Program-made: the position numbers and the translations under genes
The notes under the pieces: generated by a model
What the model was told of the DNA's origin: nothing
The model's database searches: none
What the model saw: the letters and a program-made list of their open reading frames with translations, nothing else
DNA from: Candidatus Mcinerneyibacteriota bacterium
GTDB lineage: Bacteria > AUK180 > JAQVHJ01
Length of the DNA stretch: 11,667 bases
Direction: 5' to 3'
Assembly: GCA_030630935.1 (NCBI GenBank)
Contig: DAOVMD010000050.1
Coordinates: 1-11,667 of the forward strand
In this document: piece by piece, positions 1 to 11,667 of the stretch
How positions within the stretch are numbered: the first letter of the stretch is position 1
Layout of the letters: each line of letters starts with the position of its first letter

Positions 1-99
1 AATATAAATACTTATTTGGATTTAATCTTTGGTTCAATAGTCACTTTTTTCTATTATATTCTTTTTTATAATCACATTTATTATGTAATCTCTGTTAAA
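1..99 (-). mobile_element. Partial MITE-like element, cut by the window start
   Basis: Read on the minus strand from 99, this begins with TTTAACAGAGATT (87-99) and then follows the element at 2717-2873 closely for the 99 bases visible. The other end lies outside the window. There is no coding capacity. It looks like a small non-autonomous inverted-repeat element, but no target duplication can be shown. Confidence 0.6.
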
Positions 100-120
100 T
101 ACTCTTATCTTTTTCTTTTT

Positions 121-144
121 TCAGTGTGATCAGTGTGTTCAGTG
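121..144 (-). repeat. Nonamer-period CACTGA motif, copy 1
   Basis: On the minus strand CACTGA recurs three times at exactly 9-bp steps (plus-strand TCAGTG at 121, 130 and 139). The same motif occurs at 2562-2585 and 11440-11463, each time just outside a TTTAACAGAGATT element end. Function unknown. Confidence 0.75.
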
Positions 145-187
145 GTTAATTTTAATCTTTTTGTTTTTTTCTTTTTTGAACTTTTCC

Positions 188-216
188 TTGACATAGTACT
201 GAAAATATTATATAAT
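188..216 (+). promoter_or_regulatory. Sigma70-type promoter of the left nuclease copy
   Basis: TTGACA at 188-193 and TATAAT at 211-216 are separated by 17 bp, a full consensus match. Transcription should start near 223, about 36 bases before the leader ORF. The mirrored right-arm promoter keeps both hexamers and the 17-bp spacing although the spacer sequence differs. Confidence 0.85.
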
Positions 217-258
217 TTCAATAGATGTTTTATATAACAAATAAAAAGGGAAAGCACC

Positions 259-300
259 ATGTCCGGACAGGGAAAAATGTTAGAGTTTATATATGACTAA
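259..300 (+). CDS. Short leader ORF (13 aa) before the left nuclease gene
   Basis: A 13-codon frame, MSGQGKMLEFIYD, starts at ATG 259 behind an AAGGG Shine-Dalgarno at 246-250 and ends with TAA at 298-300, overlapping the nuclease ATG at 293 by 8 bases in another frame. The nuclease ATG has only a weak ribosome site of its own, so coupled translation is plausible. The mirrored copy is MPGQGKMLEFIYDE, also with a good ribosome site. No homologue is recognised. It may be a regulatory leader or merely part of the 5' UTR. Confidence 0.45.
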   Translation: MSGQGKMLEFIYD

Positions 301-1501
301 TAAACAAAAAAATCTTCAGGAACTTGTAAACTTATTCCAAACAAACATCAAACAATATAAAAGCACTCAATACGACGAATCTAATACACGTGTTGATTTC
401 ATCGATAAGTTCTTTGAGCTTTTAGCGTGGGATGTTCGGAACACTGCAGGATATTCCGAGGACTATCGTGATGTTGTCAGGGAAGATAAAGTAACAATTC
501 AAGGAAAACCAAAAGCCCCCGATTACAGTTTCCGGATTGGCGGTGTCAGGAAATTCTTTGTTGAAGCAAAGAAACCGTCTGTAAATATTAAACTGGATAT
601 CGGTCCTGCGTTCCAGTTACGGAGATACGGTTACACCGCAAAAGTCCCATTATCTATCCTGACAGACTTTGAAGAGTTCGCGGTTTATGATACAAGGATA
701 AAACCTTCACATAAAGATAAAGCAAGTGTCGCCAGAATTTTCTACTGTACCTATGACGAGTATCAGAAGGAATGGGATTTTATTAACGATACTTTTTCCA
801 AGGAAGCCATCCTAAAAGGAAGTTTTGACAGGTATATCGTTGATAAGAAACGGAAAAAAGGAACGAGTGAAGTTGATAAGGAGTTCCTGAAACTAATTGA
901 GGATTGGCGTTCCAGGTTAGCGCGTGTGATCGCACTCCGGAACCAGGACGTAAGCATTTACGAACTTAACTATGCAGTTCAGAAAATCATTGACCGGATC
1001 ATATTCTTGAGGATCGCTGAAGATCGTCAGATGGAAGAGTACGGTATGTTGATGAAGTTGACCGAAACAGAAAATATTATGACAGACCTCATTGAGGTCT
1101 TCAACAAAGCTGATAAGAAATATAATGCCGGGTTGTTCAAGAAGGAAAAGTTTATTAATGACCTCGAGATAGATGATCATATCTTGAAATCAATTATAAA
1201 AGGACTTTACTATCCCGCATGTCCGTATGAGTTCTCTGTACTCGGAGTCGAGATCCTCGGCAATATCTATGAACAGTTCCTGGGAAAAGTCATTAGATTA
1301 ACACCAAGTCACCATGCAAAAATCGAAGAGAAACCCGAAGTCCGCAAAGCCGGCGGAGTCTATTACACACCACAATACATTGTCGATTACATCGTCCAAA
1401 ACACCCTCGGTTCTTTGTTGGGTGTTTCTGACTTGTCATTGCGCTCTATACATAAGCAGTCCGAGGACAGAGAACTCATACGGGCATGCCGGGTAGTATA
1501 G
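293..1501 (+). CDS. Type IIG restriction enzyme, truncated N-terminal nuclease half (left copy)
   Basis: The full-length family is a single large polypeptide that joins a DNA nuclease, an N6-adenine methyltransferase and a target-recognition domain, usually well over 900 residues. Here only 402 codons remain. A PD-(D/E)XK nuclease motif is visible as D77 in APDYSF and E91/K93 in FFVEAKK. A helical region follows (LNYAVQKIIDRIIFLRIAED), then the family linker ILGNIYEQFLGKVIRL and GGVYYTPQYIVDYIV (354-368), the very start of the methyltransferase. From residue 378 the frame leaves the family: the DPACGSG and NPPY motifs are missing, and the last residues are translated from antisense sequence of the right arm. 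The start follows a consensus promoter and a leader ORF. It is probably a remnant, though a solitary nuclease domain could be expressed. Being unprotected by a cognate methylase in this window would make an active form toxic. Confidence 0.8.
   Translation: MTNKQKNLQELVNLFQTNIKQYKSTQYDESNTRVDFIDKFFELLAWDVRNTAGYSEDYRDVVREDKVTIQGKPKAPDYSFRIGGVRKFFVEAKKPSVNIKLDIGPAFQLRRYGYTAKVPLSILTDFEEFAVYDTRIKPSHKDKASVARIFYCTYDEYQKEWDFINDTFSKEAILKGSFDRYIVDKKRKKGTSEVDKEFLKLIEDWRSRLARVIALRNQDVSIYELNYAVQKIIDRIIFLRIAEDRQMEEYGMLMKLTETENIMTDLIEVFNKADKKYNAGLFKKEKFINDLEIDDHILKSIIKGLYYPACPYEFSVLGVEILGNIYEQFLGKVIRLTPSHHAKIEEKPEVRKAGGVYYTPQYIVDYIVQNTLGSLLGVSDLSLRSIHKQSEDRELIRACRVV
1247..1459. other. Unique spacer between inverted-repeat arms
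   Basis: Positions 1247 to about 1427 continue the left nuclease gene through the linker and the GGVYYTP motif. From about 1428 to 1459 a short filler of unknown origin joins it to the right arm. The filler supplies the last seven codons and stop of the right copy (LLMYRAQ). The methyltransferase body was lost at this junction. Confidence 0.7.
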
Positions 1502-2413
1502 TCCTTTTATAATTGATTTCAAGATATGATCATCTATCTCAAGATCATTCATAAACTTTTCCTTCTTGAACAAACCGGCATTATATTTCTTATCAGCCCG
1601 GTTAAAGACTTCGGTCAGGTCAGTCATAATATTTTCTGTTTCGGTCAATTTCATTAACATTCCGTACTCTTCCATCTGTCTATCTTCAGCAATCCTCAAA
1701 AAGATTATTCGGTCAATGATTTTCTGAACTGCATAGTTAAGTTCGTAAATGCTGACGTCCTGGTTCCGGAGTGCGATCACGCGTGCTAATCTGGAACGCC
1801 AGTCCTCAATAAGTTTCAGGAACTCCTTATCAACTTCACTGGTTCCTTTTTTCCGTTTCTTATCATCGATATACCTGTCAAAACTCCCTTTTAGAATGGC
1901 TTCCTTGGAAAAGGTATCATTAATAAAAGTCCAATCCTTTTCATACTCGTCATACGTACAGTAGAATATTCTGGCAACACTGGCTTTATCTTTATGTGAA
2001 GGCTTTATCCTTGTATCATAAACCGCGAACTCTTCAAAATCTGTCAGGATAGATAATGGAACTTTTGCAGTGTACCCGTATCTACGTAACTGGAACGCTG
2101 GACCGATATCCTGTTTAATATTAACAGACGGTTTCTTGGCTTCAACAAAGAATTTCCTGACTCCGCCAATACGGAAACTGTAGTCAGGGGCTTTTGGTTT
2201 TCCTTGAATTATTACTTTATCTTCCCGGACAACGTCACGATAGTCTTCGGAGTAACCGGCAGTGTTCCGGACGTCCCATGCCAGCAGTTCAAAGAACTTA
2301 TCGATGAAATCGACTCGTGTATTTGATTCATCGTATTGAGTACTTTTATATTGTTTGATATTTGTTTGGAATAAATTTACAAGTTCCTGAAGGTTTTTTT
2401 GGTTATTCATCAT
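1436..2413 (-). CDS. Type IIG restriction enzyme, truncated N-terminal nuclease half (right copy)
   Basis: This 325-residue frame matches the left copy over residues 1-318 with 11 substitutions, then ends after seven unrelated residues (LLMYRAQ). The nuclease motif (D77, E91, K93) and the helical domain are unchanged, so the changes do not touch the visible catalytic residues. It is shorter than the left copy, stopping before the GNIYEQFLG linker and the methyltransferase start. Its 3' end overlaps the left gene's end by 66 bp in convergent orientation, so transcripts of the two genes would be antisense to each other and, if extended, self-complementary. It has its own consensus promoter and leader ORF. 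A double methionine begins the frame at 2413; ATG 2410 is an equally possible start. It is likely a remnant, but the maintained frame and promoter leave expression possible. Confidence 0.8.
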   Translation of the reverse strand: MMNNQKNLQELVNLFQTNIKQYKSTQYDESNTRVDFIDKFFELLAWDVRNTAGYSEDYRDVVREDKVIIQGKPKAPDYSFRIGGVRKFFVEAKKPSVNIKQDIGPAFQLRRYGYTAKVPLSILTDFEEFAVYDTRIKPSHKDKASVARIFYCTYDEYEKDWTFINDTFSKEAILKGSFDRYIDDKKRKKGTSEVDKEFLKLIEDWRSRLARVIALRNQDVSIYELNYAVQKIIDRIIFLRIAEDRQMEEYGMLMKLTETENIMTDLTEVFNRADKKYNAGLFKKEKFMNDLEIDDHILKSIIKGLYYPACPYEFSVLGLLMYRAQ

Positions 2414-2447
2414 ATATAAACTCTAACATTTTTCCCTGTCCGGGCAT
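2403..2447 (-). CDS. Short leader ORF (14 aa) before the right nuclease gene
   Basis: The frame MPGQGKMLEFIYDE starts at 2447 behind AGGGG (2455-2459) with 7-bp spacing and ends with TAA at 2403-2405, overlapping the nuclease start. It mirrors the left leader with one substitution and one extra residue. The ribosome-site sequences differ between arms, yet both are good. No known family. Confidence 0.45.
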   Translation of the reverse strand: MPGQGKMLEFIYDE

Positions 2448-2489
2448 GCTGTTTCCCCTGTTTATATCGTTATATATAAATCTATTGAA

Positions 2490-2518
2490 ATTATATAATA
2501 ATTTTCACATTATGTCAA
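2490..2518 (-). promoter_or_regulatory. Sigma70-type promoter of the right nuclease copy
   Basis: On the minus strand TTGACA (2513-2518) is followed after 17 bp by TATAAT (2490-2495). The 17-bp spacer differs from the left arm's at several positions while both hexamers are identical. Confidence 0.85.
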
Positions 2519-2561
2519 GTAAAACTTCAAAAAAGAAAAAAACAAAATAAAAATAATTAAC

Positions 2562-2585
2562 CACTGAACACACTGAACACACCGC
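2562..2585 (+). repeat. Nonamer-period CACTGA motif, copy 2
   Basis: CACTGA at 2562 and 2571 with a degenerate third unit CACCGC at 2580, period 9. It mirrors the motif at 121-144 and forms the outer end of the continuous 1125-bp part of the right arm. Confidence 0.7.
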
Positions 2586-2654
2586 AATATTATAGATTAC
2601 AATATACTTGTTTAGAGCTTGTAATACTTAATGATACTATAGAATGTAAAATAA

Positions 2655-2690
2655 ATTTCACAGGGATGTACGGGATGTACGGGATGAAAT
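2655..2690 (+). repeat. GGGATG nonamer module bounded by ATTTCA/TGAAAT
   Basis: GGGATG recurs at 2663, 2672 and 2681 (period 9, unit GGGATGTAC). The block is enclosed by ATTTCA (2655-2660) and its reverse complement TGAAAT (2685-2690). It lies in the piece present only in the right arm. Function unknown. Confidence 0.7.
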
Positions 2691-2716
2691 AAAAACAAAA
2701 AAACTGATTTCAGATT

Positions 2717-2873
2717 TTTAACAGAGATTACATAATAAATGGGATTATTAAAAAGAATATAATAGAAAGAAGTAATTATTGAACTTATGATTAAATTAAA
2801 ATAGGTGTTTATATTCTTTTTCCTATCCCATATTATCATGCTTCCTGAATCTCCGATTCCAATCTCTGTTAAA
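2717..2873 (+). mobile_element. MITE-like element with 13-bp perfect terminal inverted repeats
   Basis: The 157-bp unit begins TTTAACAGAGATT (2717-2729) and ends with its exact reverse complement AATCTCTGTTAAA (2861-2873). The interior is very AT-rich and has no credible gene. Related copies are at 1-99 (partial, opposite orientation) and 11469-11655. A further isolated end-like motif with one mismatch is at 3044-3056. This suggests a non-autonomous mobile or dispersed palindromic element. No transposase and no target duplication are visible. Confidence 0.65.
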
Positions 2874-2981
2874 GAACTTGTAGTGTATGAGAACAATTCA
2901 TTAATTATGGGACACTCCACTTGAGCATGCTTTTGTGCTCTTTACAGCGAAGCTGTAAGTTATCTATAAAACGACTGTTCT
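2859..2981 (+). repeat. Direct repeat, copy 1
   Basis: This shares with 3042-3206 the ordered blocks CCAATCTCTG, TAGTGTATGAGAA with AATTCATTAA and ATGGGAC, then CACTTGAG followed by TGCTTTTGTGC, then TCTATAAAACGACTGTTCTC. It contains a 7-bp-stem hairpin TTACAGC-GAA-GCTGTAA at 2942-2958 where copy 2 has two different hairpins. Confidence 0.65.
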
Positions 2982-3009
2982 CTACTCTCTGATATCTGTT
3001 CTCTGTTCT
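2975..3009 (+). repeat. Heptad tandem array, 5 units
   Basis: Five consecutive 7-bp units related to CTGTTCT (CTGTTCT, CTACTCT, CTGATAT, CTGTTCT, CTGTTCT). A hairpin GGTTAAC-AGA-GTTAACC follows at 3016-3032. The same array-plus-hairpin arrangement recurs at 3200-3251 and, inverted, at 4303-4376. Confidence 0.75.
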
Positions 3010-3041
3010 CGGTGAGGTTAACAGAGTTAACCGAAAAGGTT

Positions 3042-3206
3042 CCAATCTCTGCTAAAAACTTATAGTGTATGAGAATAATTCATTAAATATGGGACGCCTC
3101 CTCGAATAAAATGAATTTGGAACACAGCACTTGAGTGTGCTTTTGTGCCTTGTGCTCTTAAGCACTAGACAGCTCACCTGTCTTCTATCTATAAAACGAC
3201 TGTTCT
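3042..3206 (+). repeat. Direct repeat, copy 2
   Basis: Second copy of the composite repeat at 2859-2981, longer by insertions of about 40 bp. Its hairpins are GTGCT-CTTA-AGCAC (3152-3165) and AGACAG-CTCAC-CTGTCT (3167-3183). It runs into the heptad array at 3200. Confidence 0.65.
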
Positions 3207-3227
3207 CAGTTCTCTGTTATCTGTTCT
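3200..3227 (+). repeat. Heptad tandem array, 4 units, abutting the dus stop codon
   Basis: Units CTGTTCT, CAGTTCT, CTGTTAT, CTGTTCT end exactly where the synthase stop codon begins (3228). The adjacent hairpin CAAGCAA-CTTTG-TTGCTTG (3233-3251) lies inside the coding region and encodes the last residues of the protein, suggesting the repeat replaced the original C-terminal codons. Confidence 0.75.
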
Positions 3228-4190
3228 CTAATCAAGCAACTTTGTTGCTTGAAAATGTTTCTGAATGGTTTCAATAATCTCTTGCCTAGTTTTAAATTGA
3301 ATAAGTTGTGGAAGAAATTTTACGTGATCCGGAATTCCTTTAAGATATGGCTTTAAAAATTTTCTGAATTTTAAAATCCCGGAAGTTTCTCCATATTCCT
3401 CGATCATTAAATTAAAATGCTCAAGCATGACTGAAATTCTTTCTTCCCTGGTTGGCTCTTTATAATCGGGTTTATTAATATTAAATATCCATGGATTTCC
3501 TGTGCTGCCCCTTCCAATTAAAAATCCTTCAGGTCTTATCTCATGTACTATTCTATCATAATCTTCCTTTGAATAAACCCCGCCGTTTGCTATAATTGGA
3601 ATTTTAAAGAACGATTTTAAGGTCTTAAAGTTTTCCAGCTCAAGTGCTCCTGAAAACAATGCTTTTTTTGACCTAAGATGGAGAAAAACACAAAGGAGTC
3701 CGTTCTCTTCTGCAATTTTAATGAGGTCCTTTGACTTGCAATCATTGATGCTCCAACCAATTCTTGTCTTTATTGAAAGTGGTGTTTTCATTTTTTTAAG
3801 TATACTTACGATGATTTTTTCCGCTAAGTTAGGATGTTTTAATAATGCAGCTCCACCTGATTTTCCTGTAACTTTTCTCGCAGGACACCCCATGTTAATA
3901 TCGATTAGATCAGGTTTAAATTTGTTTTCAATATCCTTTGCTGTTAATGCTAAGGCTTCCGGATCACTACCGAAGAGCTGCACTCCAACAGGTCTGTCAA
4001 TATCTTCAAATTTGATGAAACGATTGTGAAAATCAGGATTCATTTGATACCCTCTGCCGCTTATCATCTCAGTAAAGAGAAGTCCACGACAGCCATACTT
4101 CCTAATTATCTTTCTGAAAGGATAGTCAGTGTACGCTGCTAAAGGTGACTGGTTGATGTTTGTTTTTATAATGTCAAGTAATGTTTTCAT
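3228..4190 (-). CDS. dus: tRNA-dihydrouridine synthase (DusB-like)
   Basis: This FMN-dependent enzyme reduces uridines to dihydrouridine in tRNA loops, acting in the cytoplasm. From the start at 4190 it has 320 residues, a normal length. Visible motifs are the N-terminal PLAAYTDYPFR, then VQLFGSDPEAL, the catalytic-cysteine segment INMGCPARKV, SIKTRIGW, ANGGVYS and the FMN-phosphate loop IGRGSTGNPWIF. The DusB subfamily is suggested by the MGCPA..KV region but not proven. An upstream ATG at 4262 would add 24 residues, but that extension is encoded by a palindrome and tandem TATGGTTC words and precedes the conserved fold, so MKTLLDII is preferred. The gene is separated from tsaD by about 270 bp and is bracketed by inverted heptad-hairpin repeats. 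The C-terminal FQATKLLD is encoded by such a hairpin. Confidence 0.9.
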   Translation of the reverse strand: MKTLLDIIKTNINQSPLAAYTDYPFRKIIRKYGCRGLLFTEMISGRGYQMNPDFHNRFIKFEDIDRPVGVQLFGSDPEALALTAKDIENKFKPDLIDINMGCPARKVTGKSGGAALLKHPNLAEKIIVSILKKMKTPLSIKTRIGWSINDCKSKDLIKIAEENGLLCVFLHLRSKKALFSGALELENFKTLKSFFKIPIIANGGVYSKEDYDRIVHEIRPEGFLIGRGSTGNPWIFNINKPDYKEPTREERISVMLEHFNLMIEEYGETSGILKFRKFLKPYLKGIPDHVKFLPQLIQFKTRQEIIETIQKHFQATKLLD

Positions 4191-4251
4191 ATGAACAATT
4201 GTAACTCCAGCACACTTAAACTTGTTTTGAACTCTTGAACCATAGAACCAT

Positions 4252-4271
4252 AGACGTGCCATGGCACGTCT
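4252..4271. repeat. Perfect 20-bp palindrome
   Basis: AGACGTGCCA followed by its exact reverse complement TGGCACGTCT, no loop. It lies 62 bp upstream of the chosen dus start. It could be an operator or, more likely given its surroundings, another dispersed palindromic repeat. Confidence 0.8.
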
Positions 4272-4302
4272 CTACAATAACATTTAAACACATGCAAAGC
4301 AT

Positions 4303-4376
4303 GCTAAAGCAACTCTGTTGCTTTAGCAGAGAGCAGAGAGCCGAGAGCTGAGAACAGAGAGCAGAAAGCTGAGAAC
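4303..4376 (+). repeat. Hairpin plus heptad array (7 units), inverted relative to the arrays near 3000-3250
   Basis: A perfect stem GCTAAAGCAA / TTGCTTTAGC with loop CTCTG (4303-4327) is followed directly by seven 7-bp units (AGAGAGC twice, CGAGAGC, TGAGAAC, AGAGAGC, AGAAAGC, TGAGAAC). The hairpin core matches the GCAACTTTGTTGC hairpin at the other end of dus, and the heptads are the complement of CTGTTCT. Confidence 0.8.
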
Positions 4377-11275: not shown

Positions 11276-11439
11276 ACAATTGAAGAGTCCTAGGTGTGGA
11301 TTCTAATTGTTGGTATTAACTCCATTTTTTATTAGAAACAGGATTGCAGACATCTCGCATGACCGAGCATCGTCGGGATTGAAATTTAGATAACAACACC
11401 CTATAAAGGTTATTTTAAAGATAAATAAAATTTTTTAAC

Positions 11440-11463
11440 CACTGATCACACTGAACACACTGA
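11440..11463 (+). repeat. Nonamer-period CACTGA motif, copy 3
   Basis: CACTGA at 11440, 11449 and 11458 (period 9), ending 5 bp before the TTTAACAGAGATT element end, the same order as in the left inverted-repeat arm. Confidence 0.75.
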
Positions 11464-11468
11464 AAAAA

Positions 11469-11655
11469 TTTAACAGAGATTACACGATTATGGGATAAAA
11501 AAATGAATAGAAAAGATGAATACCTATTTGATTATAACTATATAATAAATTCGGATTTTATCTTATGCAAAAAGTTTTCTCATTAGTTTTTTCTATTCCT
11601 TTTAATAATCCCATTAATCATGTTGATGGAATCTTTGATTCCAATCTCTGTTAAA
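11469..11655 (+). mobile_element. MITE-like element, 187 bp, 13-bp perfect terminal inverted repeats
   Basis: It starts TTTAACAGAGATT (11469-11481) and ends AATCTCTGTTAAA (11643-11655). Subterminal sequences are also roughly complementary (ATTATGGGAT on the left, ATCCCATTAAT on the right), so most of it can fold. Its interior differs in length and sequence from 2717-2873, so family members share mainly their ends. Confidence 0.65.
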
Positions 11656-11667
11656 AATCTGAACTTA

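Follow-up and report, generated by a model that had tools for sequence, protein, structure and literature searches.

The window analysed here, the whole stretch of DNA studied, is the entire contig C186 (11,667 nt) of a genome bin of 3.16 Mb that comprises 471 contigs and is about 80% complete. Base 1 is the contig end and lies inside dispersed-repeat sequence. Close to this end, two truncated genes face each other within a long inverted repeat (Table 1). The remainder of the window is a cluster of cell-envelope and tRNA-modification genes, namely dusB, tsaD and genes for a polysaccharide deacetylase, an S41 protease, an M23 peptidase, FtsX, FtsE and a cupin.

Table 1. Features of the inverted repeat and its surroundings, in window coordinates unless a locus is named
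Feature	Position	Strand	Basis or remark
Dispersed repeat, upstream of arm 1	1-121	.	matches to bases 1-292 mostly within 1-175
Arm 1 of inverted repeat	119-1246	+	repeat comparison 89%; BLAST 90.3%
Arm 1 sigma-70-like promoter	188-216	+	TTGACA-17-TATAAT, 12/12
Leader ORF MSGQGKMLEFIYD	259-300	+	overlaps start of arm 1 gene
Arm 1 type IIG 5' fragment	293-1501	+	402 aa; type IIG model and HSDR_N match
Dispersed element, first 11 nt (TTGTCATTGCG)	1433-1443	+	in frame, same codon as in C153 copy
Junction filler, 16 nt, matching neither arm	1444-1459	.	genome search
Arm 2 type IIG 5' fragment	1436-2413	-	325 aa, 318 shared with arm 1 product
Arm 2 of inverted repeat	1460-2587	-	repeat comparison with 119-1246
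79-nt stretch identical to C153 end	1983-2061	-	contig C153 breaks there
Leader ORF MPGQGKMLEFIYDE	2405-2449	-	overlaps start of arm 2 gene
Arm 2 sigma-70-like promoter	2490-2518	-	TTGACA-17-TATAAT, 12/12
Dispersed repeats between arm 2 and dusB	2588-2878	.	genomic repeat matches
Linker insert sites	L004 (C153) around 7943 (-); L018:756; L024:7108; L154:9156; L166:9156; L160:9177		

The two arms are 1128 nt each, 89% complementary and 213 nt apart; BLAST finds the same inverted repeat at 124-1246 and 1460-2582 with 90.3% identity. This confirms the long inverted repeat with two convergent genes that a sequence-only reading had described. Further out, at 1-99 and 2717-2815 (and roughly 100-175), we found the similarity to be that of dispersed-repeat sequence. 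Bases 1-292 have 53 matches in the genome, mostly within 1-175, and one genomic match reaches 91% identity, above the 88% of the other arm. Because the outer match is made of such repeats, it is not evidence for a longer duplication, and we rejected a duplication extending beyond the genes. Dispersed intergenic repeats of several families, some palindromic, occupy 1-175, 2533-3260, 4192-4360 and 11423-11660 of the window, and many contigs of the bin terminate in such repeats.

Inverted repeats of at least 150 nt were surveyed in this genome on a sample of 59 informative contigs totalling 0.52 Mb, chosen partly for contigs with the 11-nt dispersed element found at the junction and counted after exclusion of three contigs that read as N. 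No other was found in this sample; accordingly, the 1.1-kb repeat is not a chance feature.

By sequence, the truncated face-to-face genes are copies of an ordinary bacterial restriction-enzyme gene of the known type IIG kind (Eco57I/MmeI/BpuSI-like, single-chain). The arm 1 product matches the PADLOC model PDLC03604 REase_MTase_IIG with an E value of 4.7e-115 (residues 3-375, model positions 5-378 of 1011) and the arm 2 product with 9e-93 (residues 2-319), in line with the type IIG identity first proposed for both half genes. The matches cover the N-terminal third of the model, and both products also match Pfam HSDR_N. What they share with type IIG enzymes is an N-terminal PD-(D/E)xK-type nuclease domain, recognised from its motif, HSDR_N and predicted strands, and a helical connector. 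The nuclease motif P76-D77...E91-A92-K93 is invariant in 40 relatives and the same in both arms, with predicted strands at 78-82 and 86-92. A structure prediction (mean pLDDT 78) places the nuclease at about residues 1-153 and a helical bundle at residues 154-303, limits that are a reading of predicted secondary structure, with a poorly predicted methyltransferase start after them. Among solved structures the best match, though a weak one (E 0.083), is to type IIG BpuSI.

Unlike complete type IIG genes, both window genes stop short of the specificity domain and of the catalytic methyltransferase motifs. The arm 1 product contains the nuclease, the helical connector and the motif-X region and stops just after the motif-X helix; its last 20 or so residues are encoded by the junction and the antisense strand of arm 2. 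The arm 2 product consists of nuclease and helical connector only. Its break follows residue 318 and falls between two predicted helices (295-303 and 320-330), and the product thus stops before the motif-X helix. The adenine methyltransferase motifs (DPACGSG, NPPY) and a target-recognition domain are absent from both products.

These parts are present in a third copy, on contig C153 (8,731 nt), which continues into Eco57I (7.1e-39) and TaqI_C (9.1e-21) domains. The C153 copy is without its own 5' end, as the contig stops there, in the 79-nt exact repeat that it has in common with arm 2. The position of this break shows that the copies confused the assembly, and it makes the phasing of arm 2 across 1983-2061 uncertain. 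Adjoining the C153 copy, downstream of a Fic-like gene, lies a 3'-end remnant of a second type IIG copy (L004:4721-4831, minus strand; YKLYNLTKEEIKIIEEN). Copies of the type IIG gene therefore do decay in this genome. Except for this short remnant, no orphan 3' halves were found in the bin.

Each arm has its own promoter. The two lie at mirrored positions and are the sole perfect 12/12 matches in 2.9 kb, so the matching promoters noted earlier are indeed there, as are the leader ORFs (13-14 aa). A leader ORF was found in the two arms and in none of the other loci scanned; since it is limited to the arms, we rejected a conserved leader peptide. Transcripts from the two promoters are predicted to be mutually complementary, and any hairpin or antisense RNA is probably incidental.

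We then compared the arms codon by codon. As counted in the sequence-only reading, 11 of the 318 shared residues differ. None of these differences falls on the 126 positions that are invariant or nearly invariant in 40 relatives (chance about 0.003), and the nuclease residues are, as had been claimed, unchanged in both arms. Third codon positions account for 75 of the 88 coding differences. The comparison of synonymous with nonsynonymous changes gives a dN of 0.017-0.019 (about 0.018) against a dS of 0.40-0.54, a dN/dS of about 0.04, which indicates that the arms diverged under constraint. At the observed dS, around 286-386 nonsynonymous changes are expected without constraint, against the 11 amino-acid changes seen. 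The truncation is therefore recent, and the genes can have spent only a short time free of selection.

Exact identity between the arms extends over 44 nt at most and there are no homogenised tracts; the C153 copy is about as distant from either arm as the arms are from each other. These distances argue that the arms have not been homogenised by mutual conversion. Old but unconverted arms are unlike what neighbours in an old inverted repeat might show, which suggests that the join is much younger than the duplication. Judged from these substitution patterns, the arms are old, separately constrained paralogue copies, and the low dN/dS, the lack of homogenised tracts and the equidistant C153 copy together support the recent join of two paralogues that had been proposed.

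The spacer between the arms has the 213 nt given earlier, but its nature is different: it is mostly arm 1 coding sequence (1247-1435, matched by the C153 copy), and the true junction occupies only about 1433-1459. In the alignment, arm 1 tracks the C153 gene up to TTGTCATTGCG. This 11-mer has 122 exact copies in the genome (57 forward and 65 reverse, compared to 0 for the reversed control), and sampled copies of the element mostly read TTGTCATTGCGAG...GCGGCAATCT. At the same codon of the C153 gene, within the linker that precedes the methyltransferase, the element is likewise in frame, which makes it most likely that arm 1 once had it as well. With up to 2 mismatches allowed, the filler that follows matches nothing else in the bin, and its origin as a piece of the genome was rejected. 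The junction was not found in viral contigs, in which relatives occur at five loci (38-53% identity).

We lean towards a history in which a single, recent illegitimate deletion cost two paralogues their 3' halves. It would have started from two full-length paralogous type IIG genes with their own promoters, presumably convergent and under selection until recently. A single deletion would then have removed the methyltransferase core and the specificity domain of both. It may have begun inside the dispersed repeat element that the linker of gene 1 carried in frame; its other end would lie behind codon 318 of gene 2, with the 16-nt filler left at the join. What stayed behind would be two promoter-nuclease-connector fragments that form the 1.1-kb inverted repeat. 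That one and the same type IIG model is matched by the two fragments, in each case starting from its N-terminus, counts for this history, as does the absence of the orphan 3' halves that an inversion would leave. Counted against it are the filler, which the deletion does not explain, and the bin, whose 471 contigs and completeness of about 80% make missing pieces possible. No relative shows the convergent order of two genes that is taken as ancestral.

A chromosomal inversion between directly oriented copies, with breakpoints within each gene, would yield exactly the arrangement seen, joining the 5' halves here and the 3' halves elsewhere. The dispersed element at the breakpoint is indeed present in both directions. 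Nonetheless, we regard an inversion as improbable: its expected product, orphan 3' halves, was looked for in the bin and only the C153 gene and the short remnant were found, a weak argument given that the bin is incomplete.

A more serious competitor to the deletion, although still the less likely of the two, is that the join is an artefact, in which a chimeric molecule or a misassembly links two intact type IIG genes whose true place is elsewhere or whose true orientation is direct. The genome holds three copies similar enough to have long exact stretches in common, contig C153 ends in one of these with the consequences for arm 2 phasing given above, and the window contig itself begins in dispersed-repeat sequence. 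Both halves are undamaged, and a chimera of two intact genes would also show clean frames and intact promoters. In multiple displacement amplification (MDA), more than 85% of rearrangements are inverted sequences with deletions, and more than 70% of junctions are primed at 2-21 nt of complementarity (PMC1855051). Inverted joins with intervening deletions at short homologies are the usual type of chimera in amplified DNA (PMC1855051), and the locus resembles such MDA or assembly chimeras in its inverted join with a deletion and in the short repeated sequence at the breakpoint. It differs from them in that the arms are 10% diverged rather than identical and in the 16 nt of neither arm, which would not arise from simple template switching between the arms. 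Moreover, the common 11-mer is short for a graph-assembly misjoin, and many inverted repeats in the bin, the general signature of such artefacts, were not seen in the 59 sampled contigs. If the join is real, it offers a clean snapshot of the decay of duplicated restriction genes, with dispersed repeats inside genes able to serve as breakpoints and a long inverted repeat left behind.

A search of related genomes for the same inverted pair came back negative. No inverted second copy was present in 80 fetched relatives (flanks up to 8 kb) and no inverted pair in six other genomes of the class, and we rejected the pair as a conserved arrangement. The gene cluster is conserved in the nearest relative, of the same family; downstream of dusB this relative has another convergent gene, which by eye looks like a glycosyltransferase, and no type IIG gene at this locus. 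Its own type IIG gene is single and split over two contigs. These contigs (the end of L017 and the start of L018) overlap end to end by exactly 127 identical nt, and the break is close to the region in which C153 breaks. As assembled, the tsaD of the nearest relative (L172:10215-11195, plus strand) is interrupted by one in-frame TAG stop; either the sequence is in error or an essential gene is broken.

The fragments lack the parts needed for recognition and protection, which makes remnants their likeliest status: they are probably decaying and non-functional. Leftover remnants are the most likely reading of the locus overall and an assembly or sequencing join a less likely one; a working device is not favoured. 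The earlier suggestion of some role for the pair drew no support, as the pair is absent in 80 relatives, the nearest relative is without the gene at this locus, and the catalytic and specificity parts are lacking. We consider it very unlikely that the pair is functional, whether as recombination donors to a full-length gene located elsewhere in inversion-type switching, through hairpin or convergent RNA that regulates the remaining type IIG gene, or through active nuclease fragments. A function would fit the fact that each arm has an intact frame, conserved nuclease residues and a perfect promoter, and it would also fit the end of arm 2 between predicted helices, after the helical bundle, and the break of C153 at 79 nt in common with arm 2. 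Selection that acted ahead of the truncation accounts for the constraint, and no inverted pair occurs in the 80 relatives or the other class genomes.

The locus does resemble invertible phase-variable restriction-modification loci (hsdS) in having inverted, partly identical gene copies at one place (PMC7394358, PMC4948785). Known loci of this type exchange specificity-determining parts (PMC7394358), whereas the arms here hold only the conserved nuclease end. Neither between nor beside the arms is there a full-length gene, and no recombinase was found among the neighbouring genes scanned. Alternative specificity segments are absent between the arms, where the 213 nt consist of motif-X region coding sequence and the junction; an inversion across the arms would alter only this spacer. 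There is a very slim chance that the two nuclease halves, each with its promoter, act as alternative 5' cassettes that recombine with a methyltransferase-specificity 3' half and so switch a type IIG system on and off. On this same reading, just as slim, the recombination would run through long shared stretches, for example the 79-nt block at the C153 break. The inverted repeat by itself points to no new system.

Finally, the linker between the motif-X helix and methyltransferase motif I varies in length in this family. It measures 12-22 aa in 64 of 73 relatives and at least 27 aa in 9. At least six of the nine long linkers contain in-frame peptides that resemble translated palindromic dispersed repeats of different kinds (SLRAQRGNL, VIASDQGERGNL, RHSREGGNP/VIPAKAGIQ, VIPAKAGIH, LTLSPALSLSQG and PSLVKRG; sites in Table 1). 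The three inserts that we checked are dispersed in their own genomes, with 122, 59 and 13 copies. Such linker inserts resemble the in-frame palindromic elements of Rickettsia. The in-frame uptake of unrelated dispersed repeats by one linker, in several phyla, may merit more attention than the inverted repeat.
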